64,000 bases of DNA from a bacterium 1XD8-76. GTDB taxonomy: Bacteria > Bacillota > Clostridia > Lachnospirales > Lachnospiraceae. Location: contig RAZE01000007.1 of the NCBI GenBank assembly GCA_003611955.1, positions 90,048 through 154,047 of the forward strand. The letters are read 5' to 3'. The notes under the pieces were generated by a model, which did no database searches, was not told the origin of the DNA, and saw only the letters and a list, made by a program, of their open reading frames with translations. The number at the start of each line of letters is the position of its first letter. Position 1 is the first letter of the stretch. The translations under genes and the position numbers were made by a program. Shown here one piece after another: positions 6,929-14,100 of the stretch.

Positions 6929-6972
6929 AAATAATAATATTGTTGCACGGCAAAAACAGAAGGAGGCCTGTT

Positions 6973-7744
6973 ATGCAGACAACTGACGAAAAGCTGATAA
7001 AAGCCATTTATCAATCTTCTCCGGTTATCCATTTTTGCAACCGCTTCAGCGGCAGCTCTCCCCTGTGGGATTATACAAGACACAAACATCCCTATTTCGA
7101 ATTTATTTATCATTTACGTGGAAATGTCCGCAGAAAAACGGACGATCTGACTGTTCAAAACGCCAATATATTTGATACGATCCTGTACCCTGCAGGCTGC
7201 TGGCATCAGGACACCGCTACCGACTCCAAAAAAGAAGACTGCCATCACCTGCGGGAGGTTATCTGCATCTGGGCGGCCTTCCCCGGTATCCACCTCGACA
7301 AGCCTGTCAAAGTACAGGATCAGAATGGAATGCTCGAGCATCTGTTTTCCGCGCTCTATACAGAATCGCAGAAAATATCCCCTTCGCCGGAGCTTCTCTC
7401 TCTACAGATCCGCACGCTCTTTTTGCAGATCCTTATACTGTCCAATGAAAGTTCGAATACCCTCGTCAACCATGTGATGCAATATTTAAATTTGTATAGT
7501 AAAGAAAATATATCTATCGAAATACTCGCCGAACAGGTGCATGTCAGTAAATCCTATCTGGTAAAACAGTTCAAGGAAAAGACTTCTTGTCACAACAACA
7601 AAAAGCGTGGAAGAGATCGCTCTTGAAACCGGGTTTGACTCCCCGAAATACCTGTACCGGCTTTTCAAAGCGCAGGAAGGACTTTCCCCCAACGCCTACA
7701 GACGCCTGTATCTGACGGAGCATGATGACTCTATCATTACCTGA
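6973..7744 (+). pseudogene. AraC-family transcriptional regulator broken by an internal deletion
   Basis: The ATG at 6973 follows AGGAGG. The first frame encodes an N-terminal cupin-like sensing domain (WDYTRHKHPYFEFIYHLRG) and the first helix-turn-helix of an AraC DNA-binding domain (ISIEILAEQVHVSKSYLVKQ), and then stops at 7626. The second half of the AraC domain continues in another frame from about 7591: TKSVEEIALETGFDSPKYLY, then LFKAQEGLSPNAYRRLYL to a stop at 7744. About 20-25 residues between the two helix-turn-helix units, normally containing the NRIRIEKAKELL-like helix, are missing, so a deletion of roughly 60-80 bases that is not a multiple of three is inferred. It would have regulated the divergent sugar transporter, which is also broken. 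Confidence 0.8.
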
Positions 7745-7778
7745 TACTGCCCGGCACTGTACATAACGATCGCAAGAT

Positions 7779-9377
7779 TTAACTATCTGTCCGCATTTTT
7801 TCAAATTTTTCTATTATACATTCATGCCTTTTACTTTTCTTATTATAATTGATTCCTACCAAAAGTATCCTGCCCGTATATTCCTCTAATACCTGTGTAT
7901 ATTTTCGATTTTTAATCTGTTGTATTGCTGTCTCCGCTGACTGATTCCACTTAAGTTCCACAAGTAAAGCAGGCATTTCCGGATACTCTTTTTTGGGAAA
8001 AAATATCAAATCAGCAAATCCTCTGCCTGTCGGCAGCTCCCTTACCGGCTTGAAATAATACCGCATGGCTCCCAGATATGCTATGCTCAATATACTGCTC
8101 AATGCGTTTTCATCATGATAAGCTATGACTGACGCATATTCAGAATGCATGAATTCTACTGTCTGAGCTACCGTTTCACAATCCATATCCAGCGTCGCTT
8201 TGACAAGTTCTTCCGATTTTATCTGAAGTTCCATAAACTCGTTCCATCTCTCGCTTTCAACAGCATCCGTCAATTCGCTTCGGATTTCTTCGTTAGGAAT
8301 AAAAGCCGTTCGGTTCACCGAGTCATAAGCAAGATATCCAAGATGTATCAACAGTGTCAACACATCATCCTTGCTTTTAAACGTAATCATATCATTTTGA
8401 TAGGTTGTGGTTTTAACCTTTACATGTTCTCCGGCGGTCATTCTTATGATCGCGGTTTTTAAGCCGTCAAAATCCATACTGATTAACGGCATAATGGATT
8501 CGTATGTTCCTGTCTGGGACCAATAGCTCTGAAAATTCCCCCAGGTCATAACACTGACAACCGCTTTCGGATTATATACCTGACAGCCGGAAAGAAGATA
8601 CCCGTCATACCATTGCTTCACTTCGTCGAAATTCTTCTGGTACTTTTCACACAGTAATTTTACTTCGTCCTCTGTAAATCCGATATATGGGGCAAATATT
8701 TTCGCATCCAGCATCGTAAATTCGTCAAAGTTATTGAGCGCCGACTGCGTTCTCACCTTTTTAATCGGCAAAATTCCCGTCATATATACAAGACTGATAT
8801 ACTTTGTAGGTTCTGTTCCTTTAAATATACCACGGAGAAAATCGATATAGCTCTCCAGTATAATCTGGTTTGCCGCTTCATCCCGTATCAGCACATCCCA
8901 CTCATCTATGATAACAATAAACTTCCTGCCTGTAGCTGCATTGATACTTGACATAACTCCCGGCAGTGAATTTATTGTCGGAGAAACCTCTTTCGGATAC
9001 ACCTGCCGCAATTCGTCAATGGCATTTTGCTGAATATAAGAAACAACATGTTCCGCGCCACCAGCCGGATTAATACACCATTGCACATCAAAATGAATAA
9101 CATCATATTGATTCAAATATTTTGCAAAAGATTCGCTCTTACTGATTGCCAGGCCTTCAAACATTTTTTTTGAATCACAGCCTTTGCTGTAGTAAGCGGC
9201 AAGCATATTAGCGGTAATAGATTTGCCAAACCGCCGGGGACGACTATTACAAATCATTGCCTGGTTTGTATTCATTACCCGGTTTGTATACTCAAGCAGA
9301 CCTGTTTTATCAACATATATTTCCGAATTCAATGCAACCTGAAATGCACTGTTATCAGGATTTACAAATCGCCCCAT
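7779..9377 (-). CDS. AAA-ATPase-like protein with C-terminal PD-(D/E)XK nuclease domain
   Basis: Belongs to the AAA-ATPase_like plus PDDEXK_9 family, abundant in gut anaerobes; its cellular role is not established. The ATG at 9377 was chosen because AGAAGGGGG lies directly upstream, giving 532 residues. N-terminal features are the conserved NPDNSAFQ.ALNSEIYVDKTGLL entry, a P-loop variant NSRPRRFGKSITANML (about residues 45-60) and a Walker B-like FIVIIDEWDVLI. Near the C-terminus LLVELKWNQSAETAIQQI matches the PD-(D/E)XK core (E-x-K). It has its own transcription unit between decayed loci. A link to mobile or defence functions is often assumed for the family but is not shown here. Confidence 0.88.
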   Translation of the reverse strand: MGRFVNPDNSAFQVALNSEIYVDKTGLLEYTNRVMNTNQAMICNSRPRRFGKSITANMLAAYYSKGCDSKKMFEGLAISKSESFAKYLNQYDVIHFDVQWCINPAGGAEHVVSYIQQNAIDELRQVYPKEVSPTINSLPGVMSSINAATGRKFIVIIDEWDVLIRDEAANQIILESYIDFLRGIFKGTEPTKYISLVYMTGILPIKKVRTQSALNNFDEFTMLDAKIFAPYIGFTEDEVKLLCEKYQKNFDEVKQWYDGYLLSGCQVYNPKAVVSVMTWGNFQSYWSQTGTYESIMPLISMDFDGLKTAIIRMTAGEHVKVKTTTYQNDMITFKSKDDVLTLLIHLGYLAYDSVNRTAFIPNEEIRSELTDAVESERWNEFMELQIKSEELVKATLDMDCETVAQTVEFMHSEYASVIAYHDENALSSILSIAYLGAMRYYFKPVRELPTGRGFADLIFFPKKEYPEMPALLVELKWNQSAETAIQQIKNRKYTQVLEEYTGRILLVGINYNKKSKRHECIIEKFEKMRTDS

Positions 9378-9558
9378 ATTACGTGCCCCCTTCTGATCTT
9401 TTCTCATAAGCCAGCTTGTACTCGTAGCTAAGTTACATTATACTACACTTATTATAATGTGCAAAGTCTTCCACAATCAGCATAAAGAAAATTCGCAGCT
9501 TTTTCAAACGACTTTTTGCGACTATATTCAACTTTCTTCCCAATGCATGACTGCACAT

Positions 9559-9602: not shown

Positions 9603-10262
9603 TTATGCCTGCCTCCCCGTCCCCATCATCTTCCCGAGCTGCTCCACGATCCCGGCGCTGCCGTTCACGGAGATCTCGCCCACCTTCTCGCAGATCCTCT
9701 CCAGGTACTCCAACTCTTTTAACCTGTAGAGCGTCTGGTTCTCATCCATGAGTTTCGCCGTATTTAACAGGGATCTGGTGGATGCCACCTCCTCCCTTCT
9801 GGAGATGACGTTCGCCTGCGCCGTCTTCTCCGCCACAAGGACGCTGTTCATGATCTCCCTGATCTCTCCGGGCAGTATGATGTCCTTGATGCCGGCGGTG
9901 AGGAAATTCACGCAGAACATGTTCTCCCTCTCCTTTAGCGCCCCGTAGATCTCTTTGGAAATCTGCTCCTTCGCCTCCAGTATCTCATCCAGTTTGTAGT
10001 TGCCCGTGATCTCCCTTATGGCGAGCTGTACCGCAGGGTAGAGCTGCGTCTTCAGATCGGAGATTGTCGCCACGAACTCCACCGCGTCGCGCACTTTGTA
10101 CATGCAGGCTACGTTCATGCGGATACCGATCTTATCTTTCGTCAGGATCTCCTGTCCCACGATATCCAGCTCTTTCTGTTTCATGTCGATGACGGAGTAC
10201 GAGATGACATGGTTGTAGTTCCAGAAGCGGTATACTCCCTTCGAGAGGGGCTCCTGCATCAC
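9603..10262 (-). CDS. SPFH/band-7 (slipin-like) protein, N-terminally truncated, probable pseudogene
   Basis: The 219-residue frame matches the SPFH core and C-terminus of rtcB-linked-type slipins: VYRFWNYNHVISYSVIDM, GQEILTKDKIGIRMN, GIKDIILPGEIREIMN, and the conserved tail TRSLLNTAKLMDENQTLYRL. Full-length relatives carry about 130-150 more N-terminal residues. Here homology starts at codons for KRYFDNVMQEPL, and the frame is closed by TGA at 10283-10281, exactly beside a tRNA-like arm. The only start available is GTG at 10262 or the adjacent ATG, without a clear RBS. It lies downstream of rtcB on the same strand and has its own terminator. The product could still be made as a short protein, but loss of the 5' half by deletion or recombination is more likely. 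Confidence 0.7.
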   Translation of the reverse strand: MMQEPLSKGVYRFWNYNHVISYSVIDMKQKELDIVGQEILTKDKIGIRMNVACMYKVRDAVEFVATISDLKTQLYPAVQLAIREITGNYKLDEILEAKEQISKEIYGALKERENMFCVNFLTAGIKDIILPGEIREIMNSVLVAEKTAQANVISRREEVASTRSLLNTAKLMDENQTLYRLKELEYLERICEKVGEISVNGSAGIVEQLGKMMGTGRQA

Positions 10263-10266
10263 ATTG

Positions 10267-10311
10267 TCAAAGTACCGTTTTCACGGGAGGGATTTGAACC
10301 CTCGACAACAT
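10267..10311 (-). CDS. Possible 14-residue leader ORF with strong RBS
   Basis: An ATG at 10311 is preceded by AAGGAGGT with a 10-base gap and opens a frame encoding MLSRVQIPPVKTVL, then TGA. The frame reads through the tRNA-like T-arm and ends just before the SPFH frame, overlapping its first codons. It may be the surviving 5' end and RBS of the broken SPFH gene, or chance. No function is proposed. Confidence 0.3.
   Translation of the reverse strand: MLSRVQIPPVKTVL
10280..10303 (-). ncRNA. tRNA-like T-arm plus 3' acceptor strand
   Basis: On the minus strand GAGGG (10303-10299), loop TTCAAAT (10298-10292) and CCCTC (10291-10287) form a canonical 5-bp T-stem with a TTCRANY loop, followed by CCGTGAA (10286-10280) in the place of a 3' acceptor strand. 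No D-arm, anticodon arm or 5' acceptor partner (TTCACGG) is visible upstream. It could be a tRNA gene fragment left by recombination, or part of a tRNA-mimicking RNA of the kind known in RNA-repair operons. Confidence 0.4.
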
Positions 10312-10447
10312 AATCAATAATACCTCCTTAACCTTTCGTTTAGTTATATGAAATATTTATGGTATACCAGACGGCACGCCGCCGGCACCGCCGGGCAGGA
10401 GGTAACCTCCGATACCCGAGCGCTATAAATTATTTCCACAAAAATTG

Positions 10448-11680
10448 TTACCCTTTTACAACGCCCACCGTCTTCAACTTCCTCACGGACGTGACCATAT
10501 CCTGCTGCTGCGCCATAACCTGATCGATATCCTTGTAGGCGAACCGGCACTCCTCCGCCACGTCGTTCTTCTTCCGTTTGCCCAGCACGATATCCTGTTC
10601 CTTCAGATCCACCATGACCTGCTCGATACTGAACGCTTTCATGGCGCCCGATCTGGAATAACATCTGCCCGCGCCGTGGGAGGAAGTGCAGAAGGATTCC
10701 CTGTTTCCTTTTCCCTCCACCACATAGCTGTAGGAACCCATGGCGCCGGGTATCACCGCCATCTCCCCCTCCCGCACCCGGGTAGCGCCTTTTCTGTGCA
10801 CCCACACATTCTCGTCATAGTGGTTTTCAAGCGACGCATAATTGTGATGGCAGTTGATCTCCTGTCCAAATTCCACGGTATGTCCCGTGTGCTTTTCGAT
10901 CAGTTCCTTTACCGCCGCGCAGGTTTTCTCCAACATGCGCGCCCGGTTCTCGAAAGCGTAATCCATGGCAAGGTTCATCCAGTTGATGTACTGTTTTCCC
11001 TCCTCAGCTTCCACGGGCAGAAATGCCAGATGATACTCATCCTTCACATCGCTGTACCATCTCCTGTTGAGCTCCCTCGCCATCCCGTGAAAATGATCGC
11101 AGACCGCCTTTCCGAGATGACGGCTCCCGGAGTGGATCATGATACACAAAAAACCGTCCTGATCCTCCTGCAGCTCGATAAAGTGATTGCCGCCCCCCAG
11201 ACTGCCCACCTGGAAATATCCGTCGTCGATCAGCGGCAGAAGCTCCGGATTCTGTTCATACTTTTCCATCTCCTGCTTCGCGCGATCCAGTACCACAGAT
11301 TCCTGGGGCGTCTTATACCTCTCCGTATTCAGAGGGATGGACCGCATGATGTTTCCGATGATCGACTGGATCAGTGTGCCGTTCCCGGTCTGAATCCCCC
11401 GGATATCCTCCACTTTGATGTTCGTTGGCACAAAATCCATGCCGCATCCGATATCGACGCCCACCGCGTTCGGAATGACCACATCTTTCGCGGCGATCAC
11501 GCCGCCGATCGGCATACCCTTGCCCGTGTGGGTGTCCGGCATCAGGCATATCCATTTATGTAGAAAGGGAAGCTGCGACAGATGATACGCCTGTTCCAGA
11601 CAGCTGTCCTCCAGCTGACTGATATCCTTAAGCCATATCTTGATCGGAAATCTTGTCTTTTCATTGTATAATACGAACAT
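10448..11680 (-). CDS. rtcB: RtcB-family RNA ligase
   Basis: GTP- and Mn-dependent RNA ligase that joins 2',3'-cyclic-phosphate or 3'-phosphate ends to 5'-OH ends, as in repair of cleaved tRNA and other RNA. The 410-residue protein starts at 11680 behind AAAGGAGG. Family signatures are clear: MPDTHTGKGMPIGGVIA, the metal-binding Cys in GVDIGCGMDF, GGGNHFIEL, HSGSRHLGKAV, and the nucleotide-binding SSHGAGRCYSRSGA region with its His. It is divergent from two tandem WYL-domain genes and upstream of a truncated SPFH gene, a context expected for stress-induced RNA repair rather than constitutive processing. No rtcA or archease gene is adjacent. Confidence 0.93.
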   Translation of the reverse strand: MFVLYNEKTRFPIKIWLKDISQLEDSCLEQAYHLSQLPFLHKWICLMPDTHTGKGMPIGGVIAAKDVVIPNAVGVDIGCGMDFVPTNIKVEDIRGIQTGNGTLIQSIIGNIMRSIPLNTERYKTPQESVVLDRAKQEMEKYEQNPELLPLIDDGYFQVGSLGGGNHFIELQEDQDGFLCIMIHSGSRHLGKAVCDHFHGMARELNRRWYSDVKDEYHLAFLPVEAEEGKQYINWMNLAMDYAFENRARMLEKTCAAVKELIEKHTGHTVEFGQEINCHHNYASLENHYDENVWVHRKGATRVREGEMAVIPGAMGSYSYVVEGKGNRESFCTSSHGAGRCYSRSGAMKAFSIEQVMVDLKEQDIVLGKRKKNDVAEECRFAYKDIDQVMAQQQDMVTSVRKLKTVGVVKG

Positions 11681-11730
11681 ATCTGTACCTCCTTTTCTTA
11701 TATTCCATTCTGCACGTCTGAACTGTACTC

Positions 11731-11748
11731 ATTATAGGAAACATTTCC
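11731..11748 (-). promoter_or_regulatory. rtcB -10 region with overlapping inverted repeat
   Basis: Minus-strand TATAAT (11736-11731) lies 50 bases ahead of the rtcB start. Directly upstream is GGAAA-TG-TTTCC (11748-11737), a short inverted repeat placed in the promoter spacer where a repressor or activator could bind. The -35 box is weak, which fits a promoter needing activation, possibly by the divergent WYL proteins. Confidence 0.45.
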
Positions 11749-11847
11749 CACAAAATCATTTCAAAAAAGTTGCGAACTGTAGTAAAATATACGCAAAGGC
11801 AGTTTCCCGGGACTCTGCCCGTAACATTCAACGATCAGGAGAAATAT

Positions 11848-13089
11848 ATGTCCGACTTTCAGGAGCTGATCAAAAGCTTTCCAAAGACAAGAGAATACGT
11901 CCGGGACTTTTTCGTCTACGGCTTTAAGACAAGGGACGAGTTCAGGGAAAAGAGCCCCAGGACCTACGACAACGAGCGGCGGCGTCTGGAGAGCTGGCTC
12001 GGGTACTACGTACGGAAAGACCATGTCTCTAACGGCGCAAACATCTCCCTCGCCATCGACAGCAACCTCCTCGACACCAATCCGCTTTTTCAGGTCTGGA
12101 AGACGAAGAGCTTCACCGACAACGACATCGTTCTGCACTTTCTGATACTGGATCTTCTGCAGGGCGGCGGGGCGCTGACTGCCGAGGAGATCACGGAGCA
12201 CCTGCTCACCGGATATGAAGCGCTGTTCGACGTCCAGACCGTCAGAAGAAAATGCAACGCCTACGCGAAGGAAGGACTGCTGCAAAAAACAAAAGCCGGA
12301 AAGTCCGTCGTCTTTTCCCTCGACCACGCCCTCTCCGACTGGATCGGCTCCAACGACAGCATGCTGGACGCGCTATCCTTCTACCAGATGGCAGAATGCT
12401 TCGGCGTCGTCGGAAATTATCTGACGGACCAGCTTAATCACCGCAACGAAAGCTTCCGGGTGAAACACAGTTTCTGCGTACATACCCTGGAGGAGGAGAT
12501 CCTCATGAGCCTCTTAGACGCCATGAACCGGAAGACAAACGTGCATCTGGAGATGAAAAGCTCCAAAAACGGCATGACGAACACCGCGGACTGCACCCCG
12601 CTGCAAATATTCACCAGCACCCGGAGCGGCAGGCGTTTTCTGTGCAGCTATATACCCGCCAGCAAACGTTTTACCTGCCATCGCCTGGACACGGTCAGGA
12701 CTGTCACACCCCTGGAGCCTTCCCCGGAGTACGACGAACTGCTCTCCATGCTTGACCGGAACCGAAAACACCTCTGGGGTGTATCCTTCCAGGGAAACGG
12801 GAGCCGCCATCTGGACAGACTTGTTATGAAAATACAGGTTCTCGAGCCCTCCGAGCAATATATCGTCAACCGCCTGATGCAGGAAGGACGGGGCGGCACA
12901 CTCACCAGGATAGAGCAGAACGTCTATCAGTACGAGATCGAGGTTTTCGACGCCAACGAGATGCTGCCCTGGATCCGCACCTTCACCGGCAGGATCCTGT
13001 CGCTTGAATGCAGCGACAAATTGGTGGAACAGCGCTTCTATCAGGATCTGCAGGCGATGTACCGAATGTATGAGATTGATGAAGTATAA
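11848..13089 (+). CDS. WYL-domain protein, first of a tandem pair
   Basis: Predicted ligand-sensing transcription regulator. The ATG at 11848 follows AGGAG and gives 413 residues. An N-terminal helical region (KTREYVRDFFVYGFKTRDEF, then KSPRTYDNERRRLESWL) is followed by a winged-helix segment around AEEITEHLLTGYEALFDVQT. A WYL-type Sm-like domain follows (TPLQIFTSTRSGRRFLCSY, with RFTCHRLDTVRTVTPLEP), and then a C-terminal extension. It is divergent from rtcB and 27 bases upstream of a second WYL gene. WYL domains are thought to bind nucleic-acid-like or nucleotide ligands; sensing of RNA damage to control rtcB is my inference. Confidence 0.8.
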   Translation: MSDFQELIKSFPKTREYVRDFFVYGFKTRDEFREKSPRTYDNERRRLESWLGYYVRKDHVSNGANISLAIDSNLLDTNPLFQVWKTKSFTDNDIVLHFLILDLLQGGGALTAEEITEHLLTGYEALFDVQTVRRKCNAYAKEGLLQKTKAGKSVVFSLDHALSDWIGSNDSMLDALSFYQMAECFGVVGNYLTDQLNHRNESFRVKHSFCVHTLEEEILMSLLDAMNRKTNVHLEMKSSKNGMTNTADCTPLQIFTSTRSGRRFLCSYIPASKRFTCHRLDTVRTVTPLEPSPEYDELLSMLDRNRKHLWGVSFQGNGSRHLDRLVMKIQVLEPSEQYIVNRLMQEGRGGTLTRIEQNVYQYEIEVFDANEMLPWIRTFTGRILSLECSDKLVEQRFYQDLQAMYRMYEIDEV

Positions 13090-13116
13090 AAAATATACAA
13101 TGACGGGGAACAGGGA

Positions 13117-14100
13117 ATGGAACTATTTTCAGAAATATACAGCTGTTACTATCAGGTGCTGAGACACATCCTCTGCAGTCAGAGCGCTCTGGCCATGCAG
13201 GATATCCGCGCGCAGATCTGCGGCAAAGGGTTCGGGGAAAGCCTGCTCTCCATCATCCCCAAACTGGAGGACGGCACATGGAACCTTTTTAAAAAGGACG
13301 GGAATCTGTACCGCTCAAAGATCTCGTCCTCCTTCACCGTCCCCGTCTCGAACCTCGAGAGATCCTACCTCAAAGCGCTGCTCGCAGATCCCCGCATCGG
13401 ACTGTTTCTGAGCGAAGAACAGATGACATATTTGCAGAACGCTCTTGCCTCCGTCTCCCCGCTCTGGAGACCGGAGCAGTTTTACTATTTTGACCGGTTT
13501 TCGGACGGCGATCCCTACGGGGATGAAAACTACCGGTCGTGCTTCCGCACCCTGTTACAGGCGCAGAAACAGAACCGCTATGTGGATATCGACTACACCT
13601 CCCCGAAGGGTACGCGCCTGCACCACCACTATATCCCCAGCCGCTTGGAGTACTCGGTGAAAAATGACAAATTCCGGCTCCTCGCCCTGAGGCCCACTTC
13701 GTCGCTCACCGATCCGCGTTTTAAGCTGGAGATCCTCAATGTCTCCCGCATTCGGAGCGTCGAGGCGCTTAAAAAAACGCTCTCCTTCCCCGTGGACTTA
13801 AACGCCATGATCCGCCGCTCCTACTACAGAGAGCCCCTGAAACTCCGCATCGTGAACCACCGCAATGCCCTCGAGCGCGCCATGCTGCACTTCGCAAACT
13901 ATGAGAAAAATACCACAAAAATAGATGAGAACACCTACGAATGCCTCATCTACTATAATCAGGGCATGGAGACGGAACTGTTGATCGAAGTCATGTCTTT
14001 TGGTCCCATGCTCACCGTGGTCGGAAACGACAGGTTTTTAAACCTTTTGAAGGACAGACTGTACAGGCAGCGCAGCATCACGCCGCCCGTGCATCCTTAG
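13117..14100 (+). CDS. WYL-domain protein, second of a tandem pair
   Basis: Predicted regulator of 327 residues, starting at 13117 behind a GGGGAACAGGGA ribosome binding site. The N-terminal part (residues 1-70) is a small helical region suited to DNA binding. The central WYL domain is visible as NRYVDIDYTSPKGTRLHHHY, then SRLEYSVKNDKFRLLALR, then KLEILNVSRIRSVEAL; a C-terminal WCX-like extension ends with EVMSFGPMLTVVGNDRFLNL. It is in an operon with the first WYL gene, so the two may work as a heteromer. Its last 23 bases overlap the convergent DUF1801 gene. The family is fairly sure; the target is inferred from its position beside rtcB. Confidence 0.8.
   Translation: MELFSEIYSCYYQVLRHILCSQSALAMQDIRAQICGKGFGESLLSIIPKLEDGTWNLFKKDGNLYRSKISSSFTVPVSNLERSYLKALLADPRIGLFLSEEQMTYLQNALASVSPLWRPEQFYYFDRFSDGDPYGDENYRSCFRTLLQAQKQNRYVDIDYTSPKGTRLHHHYIPSRLEYSVKNDKFRLLALRPTSSLTDPRFKLEILNVSRIRSVEALKKTLSFPVDLNAMIRRSYYREPLKLRIVNHRNALERAMLHFANYEKNTTKIDENTYECLIYYNQGMETELLIEVMSFGPMLTVVGNDRFLNLLKDRLYRQRSITPPVHP

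Follow-up and report, generated by a model that had tools for sequence, protein, structure and literature searches.

A tandem pair of predicted WYL-fold proteins linked to RtcB RNA repair in Clostridia by gene neighbourhood and a common promoter box

The control of RtcB-dependent RNA repair outside the bacteria that use RtcR is largely open. The question is raised by a stretch of 64,000 nucleotides (the window; contig RAZE01000007.1) from the Lachnospiraceae bacterium 1XD8-76, in which an rtcB gene (10448–11680, minus strand) lies back to back with two tandem genes on the plus strand, here called W1 (11848–13089) and W2 (13117–14100). What do the two proteins do beside rtcB? On the strength of structural models, sequence comparison and analogy, we propose that they probably constitute an activator like PafBC and DriD, which would act on a 22-bp box over the −35 region and switch on RNA-repair genes. 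The computed basis consists of fold matches, the pairing of W1 with W2, gene linkage, a fixed spacing of 18 nucleotides (nt) between box and −10, and the co-occurrence of the box with W1.

The nature of W1 (413 residues) and W2 (327 residues) was judged from AlphaFold 2 models, made as single chains, with mean predicted local distance difference test (pLDDT) scores of 70.5 and 83.6, respectively. The start of W1 is most likely the ATG at 11848 and not the TTG at 11770, because the orthologues begin there. Comparison with solved structures (Foldseek) matched the W1 model to DriD (8tp8, E 1.1e-11) and PafBC (9fnd, E 8.7e-9), and the W2 model to DriD (E 1.9e-10) and PafBC (E 3.3e-10), then to CapW and BrxR. 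There were 32 matches below E 0.001 per model, comprising DriD, PafBC, CapW, BrxR and one CRISPR-related entry (6oaw), and for both models the best DriD and PafBC matches ranked above the best matches to BrxR and CapW. W1 and W2 are thus predicted to have the fold of WYL proteins, with a winged helix-turn-helix, an Sm-like WYL domain and a WCX domain. In profile comparisons the WYL core of W1 aligned weakly with a PafBC subunit (E 0.044), and W2 gave weak matches at most to PDB sequences. No WYL model matched either protein in Pfam (up to E 10) or NCBIfam (up to E 1), and the WYL label therefore rests on the fold. An earlier note on this DNA had listed two tandem WYL-domain genes transcribed away from rtcB; the arrangement is as described and a WYL fold is predicted, but the domain did not emerge from sequence models. 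The CARF plus sigma-54 AAA+ architecture of RtcR was not found in either protein, by fold matches or by Pfam scan.

The rtcB product (410 residues; Pfam RtcB, E 3.2e-107) is full length; the same note had given it 410 residues with all motifs. Its residues 6–410 align to RtcB of P. horikoshii (PDB 1uc2, E 1e-40), and the motifs DIGCG, GGGNHF, MIHSGSRH and SSHGAGR are all present in this alignment; their conserved residues presumably bind the metal and accept the guanylate. The proposal had been made dependent on conservation of the pair beside rtcB in relatives, and such conservation was observed. Among 74 relatives found through rtcB (loci are numbered with L, genomes with G), W1 was present in the fetched locus of 69. 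The remaining five are L020, L041 and L063, whose contigs begin at most 100 bases from rtcB, L025, which has 1.3 kb upstream, and L079 of a member of the Thiotrichaceae, in which neither W1 nor W2 was matched. With the window included (75 loci), W1 and W2 are at most 600 nt apart in 61 loci and further apart in four (L011, L044, L053 and L070), while W2 was not found in five (L012, L019, L029, L050 and L059) and W1 likewise in five. Two different WYL-fold proteins encoded in tandem, as in PafBC, are thus the usual pairing.

The linkage was also evaluated in 145 related genomes, of which 49 have RtcB and 19 have W1. Class A, the class of the window's rtcB (cut-off above 350 bits), occurs in 11 of them; every one of the 11 also has W1, which is the divergent neighbour of rtcB in 10 and lies 82 kb from the class-A rtcB in G021. 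An RtcB, slipin, DUF2828 or RlaP gene is found within about 5 kb of W1 in 16 of the 19 W1 genomes. The pair stands near a second RtcB class (27–29% identical) with DUF2828/DUF7788 in G059 and G078, and in G110 by resemblance only; near the second class and a slipin in G096; near a tRNA-like RNA and a slipin, without rtcB, in G076; and beside two RlaP genes in G055. A further sample of 291 genomes of the class gave W1 matches in 19; apart from the window's own, 12 were strong (above 350 bits) and 6 weak. Of these 12 loci, that of G223 is at a contig end; the 11 others could be evaluated, and each holds a DUF2828, second-class rtcB, slipin or RlaP gene by tblastn, four of these neighbours being confirmed by Pfam.

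Between rtcB and W1 lies the 22-bp box TTCGCAACTTTTTTGAAATGAT (11755–11776, minus strand), the predicted operator of the WYL pair, which overlaps the −35 region and ends 18 nt before a −10-like TATAAT (11731–11736, minus strand). A match to it, pointing to rtcB, was present in all 58 divergent rtcB–W1 intergenic regions, that is, those of the 75 loci in which W1 is divergent and at most 700 nt from rtcB. The match was exact in 18 regions and had one mismatch in 24, two in 11, three in 3, four in 1 and six in 1; thus 53 of the 58 had at most two mismatches, compared with 6–11 mismatches in 290 shuffled regions, a range into which L073 (six mismatches) falls. In the window's genome the rtcB-promoter site is the only one with at most three mismatches to a 21-bp pattern. 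Among 61 class-A rtcB sites the 18-nt spacing came out best in 54, and among the 21 other sites in 17; where −10 candidates scored equally, the choice went towards 18 nt. Free of that bias, a TATAAT match of 5 or 6 of 6 was found 17–19 nt away in 71 of the 82 sites, compared with 0–9 of 82 when five other distances were tried. At the −35 position, 70 of 71 sites have a hexamer that agrees with TTGACA in 3 or 4 of 6 letters, and one site agrees in 2. The earlier note had pointed to an inverted repeat in this promoter. The repeat GGAAATGTTTCC is present (11737–11748, minus strand), but it is not conserved: the perfect form GGAAANNTTTCC stands at that place in the window and L015 only (2 of 58 orthologous promoters), and it was rejected as the operator; the neighbouring box is the conserved element.

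In relatives the box also precedes slipin, DUF2828, second-class RtcB and RlaP genes. A genome-wide search of the 145 genomes with the pattern TTCGCAACTTTTTTNNNNTGAT found exact sites in 10 of the 19 W1 genomes and in none of the 126 genomes without W1 (Fisher 1e-10), and sites with one mismatch in 14 of the 19. With up to three mismatches, the box precedes an RNA-repair gene in 18 of the 19 W1 genomes, G034 being the one left. Where the genes are separated, the box stays with the targets: in G021 it is found at rtcB (L122) and is absent at W1–W2 (L121), 82 kb away, and in G076 it precedes the RNA–slipin genes. Three boxes lie on other contigs than the pair, before slipin in G027 and before DUF2828 in G055 and G096; they were found by the pattern only, the G096 site with one mismatch. 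Three of the 291 genomes in the class sample have an exact box, and each of the three has W1; no exact box was found in the 272 without W1. A box with at most two mismatches precedes a target gene in all 11 evaluable strong loci (the window's excluded). The exact boxes that were looked up in both samples precede RNA-repair genes. As far as sequence can tell, the box marks the targets and not the regulator, and the pair is linked to rtcB, slipin, DUF2828/DUF7788 and RlaP genes, including box targets on other contigs. A regulatory link between the pair and RNA repair is in this way backed by a promoter box that other RNA-repair genes have in common.

In the mechanism that we propose, W1 and W2 would form a PafBC-like unit, which would take up a ligand produced by RNA damage; the loaded unit would engage the housekeeping polymerase at the box, and rtcB transcription would start. 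The pair would thus bind the box, presumably as a heterodimer, because the box is not palindromic, which would fit two different DNA-binding domains. PafBC is a heterodimer (PMC11804915), and a heteromeric sensor would be reasonable given the PafBC-like predicted structure. Activation rather than repression is suggested by analogy, because DriD has sites that overlap with the −35 and keep a single distance to the −10 (PMC12340889). The ligand would most likely be an RNA fragment or a damaged end, by analogy with RtcR (PMC7790460).

A number of observations weigh against this proposal. The full-length TM-scores of the models to DriD and PafBC are low (0.27–0.51 by query); the DriD C-domain alone gives 0.57–0.66 by target. 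BrxR and CapW, which are also among the fold matches, are repressors. No RtcB, slipin, DUF2828 or RlaP gene lies within 5 kb of the pair in three of the 19 W1 genomes (G010, G021 and G034), and the stretch fetched for G034 lacks a box. Among the 6 weak W1 loci of the class sample only that of G321 is beside a slipin and rtcB, and none has the box. Many box sites come from close relatives, and the motif was partly learned on genomes of the 145-genome sample in which it was counted; the independent evidence therefore comes from the class sample and from the sites on other contigs. One-mismatch sites also occur in 5 of the 126 genomes without W1 (six sites, none with an RNA-repair gene by our own reading of open reading frames, made without a Pfam scan). 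With two mismatches the box is found in 59 of the 145 genomes, close to a reversed control (about 45 of 145), and as a lone marker it was discarded as not discriminating. The −35 hexamer is mediocre, not absent, and does not settle whether the pair activates or represses. PafBC, finally, is activated by single-stranded DNA (ssDNA) and not by single-stranded RNA (PMC11804915). The earlier claim that the WYL pair switches rtcB on thus gains support, from linkage and the common box, for its regulatory link as a prediction, while the unresponsiveness of PafBC to RNA tells against its choice of signal.

The alternative that fares best concerns this signal. The pair could sense DNA damage through ssDNA, RNA repair being one output, which is compatible with the activator part of the proposal; we regard it as rather unlikely, but of some weight. 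The solved folds closest to the models, DriD and PafBC, sense ssDNA, which is the ligand for DriD and PafBC (PMC12340889, PMC11804915) and for SiwR (PMC10693628), and the tRNA fragments that accompany activation of the rtc operon in Salmonella depend on RecA/LexA (PMC7790460). Against it stand the exact boxes, which precede RNA-repair genes wherever they were looked up, and the ligand-binding residues. A pair of ssDNA-binding arginines is named for PafB (PMC11804915), which we matched to the W1 alignment by our own reading: W1 keeps the first (R279) in 26 of 26 rows, but has arginine at the second position in 0 of 26, and so lacks the complete pair. W2 has, by eye, Asn208 (26 of 26) and Arg211 (23 of 26) at the corresponding positions. 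The two alignments (A2 and A3, the latter of W1) have 26 rows each, with many relatives in neither; A3 omits L027 and L065, which have a stop codon inside the chosen range, and L064 by choice.

Less probable still is that the pair represses the RNA-repair genes in the manner of BrxR and CapW and leaves the box upon binding a nucleic-acid or nucleotide ligand. W1 and W2 do match BrxR and CapW, and a box over the −35 could block the polymerase at a hexamer that still has 3 or 4 of the 6 TTGACA positions in 70 of 71 sites; but the DriD and PafBC matches rank higher for both models, and DriD promoters likewise have their site over the −35, with a constant distance to the −10 (PMC12340889). It is improbable that the box is a promoter or UP-like element for another factor, with which the WYL pair co-occurs by descent: a sigma-factor or UP-type element could account for its T-run and constant spacing, but exact boxes are absent from the 126 and 272 genomes without W1, although RtcB occurs in 49 of the 145 genomes and W1 in 19, and boxes persist at targets far from the pair. 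The PafBC/DriD-like activator remains the best reading.

The RNA that accompanies these genes can be described from the relatives, in which rtcB and slipin are separated by a gap of about 0.5–1 kb. The gap holds a conserved RNA with, in order, a T-arm, a short loop-capped acceptor stem, a D-arm, a closing stem where a tRNA has its anticodon stem, then a hairpin and another T-arm. Alignment A1 comprises 45 units from 43 of 48 loci; it omits L066 and L080 (expanded acceptor hairpin), L076 (runs of N), L079 (different layout), the window, which has a stump, and the third unit of L071. In these 45 units 95.4% of the cells are paired, against 85.1% after shuffling and 26–58% in slid controls; there are 61 double changes, compared with 9.0 in shuffles (0 of 500 shuffles reached the observed value), and RNAalifold predicts 17 of the same 18 pairs from the alignment alone. 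The layout read from these sequences corresponds to a tRNA that has been circularly permuted and opens at the anticodon loop. YrlA has a permuted T-arm/acceptor/D-arm order, and the core of such an RNA (T-arm, capped acceptor, D-arm and closing stem) is present in the relatives. In Rfam, tRNA was the sole matching family for nine relatives.

RNA and slipin largely go together. Counting the window, 69 loci extend 1.5 kb or more beyond rtcB; 42 of them have at least two T-arms and a slipin, and 22 have neither; the 42 include L065 (slipin fragment) and L079 (different layout). Four have a slipin without two T-arms (window, L059, L074 and L076), and one, L081, has T-arms without slipin, which look like ordinary tRNAs. 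In L112, L120, L123 and L157 like units (49–61 bits) either precede DUF2828-type or slipin genes or follow the second rtcB class, and slipin is therefore not the sole partner of the RNA. The RNA model R1 was dropped as a census tool, as 143 of the 145 genomes 'match' and loci resembling tandem tRNA genes reach about 54 bits, by our own reading from the T-arm of one tRNA and the D-arm of the next; the matches used were above 57 bits or had supporting context. Some variants of the RNA were seen. In Clostridium sp. KNHs205 (L071, 8497–8832) three T-arm/acceptor/D-arm units lie between rtcB and slipin, the chain ending in a class-II-like tRNA half. In L066 (8390–8430) and L080 (8406–8440) the capped acceptor stem is extended into a longer hairpin, and in L079 (rtcB 38% identical) rtcB, near-complete tRNAs and slipin follow in order at 6960–7900. 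The leaders of DUF2828-type genes in L120 (4700–5160), L123 (10680–12560) and L113 (7580–7700) have repeated stems with an ACAGC motif, which in L120 and L123 surround tRNA-like units and are perhaps Y-RNA-like binding stems. A DUF2828 protein matched no PDB sequence, and one of three DUF2828/DUF7788 proteins gave a weak Ro60 vWA match (E 0.0042, below the cut-off, in a scan at E 10).

The window's own copy of this module is truncated. The earlier note had described a canonical T-arm followed by a slipin-like gene; the T-arm is there (10287–10303), but it belongs to the stump of a longer RNA (10275–10316; R1 match 10259–10316, 45.4 bits, E 1.9e-15), and the slipin is a fragment of 219 residues (9603–10262; SPFH/Band_7, E 1.5e-24). 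All are on the minus strand, as are the acceptor mini-hairpin of the stump (10275–10286) and the leader between rtcB and the tRNA-like part (GCCCGGCGGTGCCGGCGGCGTGCCG...GGTATACC, 10304–10447), which is kept in relatives by sequence and blastn. The stump keeps one degenerate strand of the closing (anticodon-type) stem, while the D-arm, the second T-arm and the remainder are missing; ARAGORN found no tRNA in the window and Rfam no match at gathering scores. The slipin fragment matches residues 147–368 of the 368-residue orthologue of L008, so that about 146 N-terminal residues are missing. The RNA ends just past the acceptor hairpin where the slipin begins at residue 147, which places an inferred deletion junction at 10262–10275 (minus strand). 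Against relatives the window splits into two separated matches, as in L008 (8239–8397 and 9370–9464); 26 loci gave at least two pieces, L022 for another reason. Apparently one deletion of about 1 kb explains both stumps, and it may be an assembly error. L059 has separately lost the same module, and four other genus members with class-A rtcB (G001, G003, G005 and G007) keep RNA and slipin, two of these loci ending inside slipin. Because both are truncated, the tRNA-like arm and the SPFH gene are probably no working part of the window copy, whereas rtcB, W1, W2 and the box look intact. That the T-arm is an integration scar is very improbable and was rejected: isolated T-arms are common remnants of attachment sites and a similar arm occurs at three further places in the genome (two look like tRNA-type genes by our own reading), but in relatives this arm sits at the same position as part of a complete permuted tRNA-like RNA, and the window can be aligned with them to the left and to the right of the gap.

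Some neighbouring features may be recorded here. The window's genome encodes a second RtcB, 29% identical (G000:C23:25771–26745; L129 5754–6863, minus strand), adjoined by a release-factor-H-like gene with a GGQ motif by our own reading (L129 5149–5739, minus strand); that contig has no listed box with at most two mismatches. Downstream of the slipin fragment the window has an AAA-ATPase_like/PDDEXK_9 gene (7779–9407, minus strand), a homologue of which is near the locus in L011 and L044. RtcA was not among the six window proteins scanned with Pfam. In G110 (L116 5693–8933) W1 is broken by stop codons and a DUF2828-like frame looks split, while an exact box and rtcB remain, and an rtcB profile match of a genus member (G001:C47:18226–19368) was reported with one in-frame TAA.

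Taken in its widest form, which we put forward tentatively and at somewhat less than even chance, W1 and W2 could be the first known representative of a class of WYL heterodimers that sense broken RNA rather than ssDNA and, acting through the 22-bp box at the −35, drive a Clostridia-wide RNA-repair regulon, including a permuted tRNA mimic that, having its ends at the anticodon loop, would imitate an anticodon-cleaved tRNA and might itself be the substrate of RtcB or the signal. Should the activator proposal hold, it would supply a pair of regulators, the exact box in the DNA and a set of target genes in Clostridia. The reach of WYL activators would then go beyond DNA damage to include RNA damage, and a single stress response would unite slipin and DUF2828 proteins and their tRNA-like RNAs.

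Systems of RtcB, SPFH/Band-7 and tRNA-like RNA were reportedly described by Burroughs and Aravind in 2016, and the same trio is seen in the window's relatives; the WYL pair and its box were not found published. No publication on WYL control of rtcB was found by title or abstract opening among the matches listed, most subscription journals lying outside the coverage. Makarova 2014, in the part available, ties CARF (RtcR) to rtc and WYL to defence and has no WYL–rtcB link there. YrlA, a bacterial Y RNA, mimics the D, T and acceptor arms (PMC8394870) and, like the present RNA, is linked to an RNA-repair operon; unlike YrlA, the RNA described here is linked to slipin or DUF2828, and some loci carry chains of units. 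In the RtcR-controlled rtcBA and rsr-yrlBA-rtcBA operons of Salmonella and E. coli a dedicated sensor gene is likewise divergent from rtcB, and the rtc operon of some RtcR members includes a tRNA-like RNA, as here (PMC7790460). RtcR is, however, a sigma-54 activator with a CARF domain, whereas at this locus the divergent genes encode WYL-fold proteins, the −10 is of the TATAAT type, and RtcA is not among the six proteins scanned. TrcR of Anabaena is also a non-RtcR regulator of rtcB, and a slipin gene is among those raised more than 8-fold in its mutant (PMC10272220); TrcR is a ribbon-helix-helix repressor, unlike the WYL-fold W1 and W2. The closest parallels are PafBC, the actinobacterial heterodimeric WYL activator, which resembles W1–W2 in predicted fold and as a tandem pair, and DriD, the WYL activator of Caulobacter, which resembles them in predicted fold and in having its site over the −35, a constant distance away from the −10 (PMC12340889). 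PafBC and DriD go with DNA-damage genes, whereas W1–W2 go with RNA-repair genes and a different box, and in W1 one of the two ssDNA-binding arginines of PafB is replaced.

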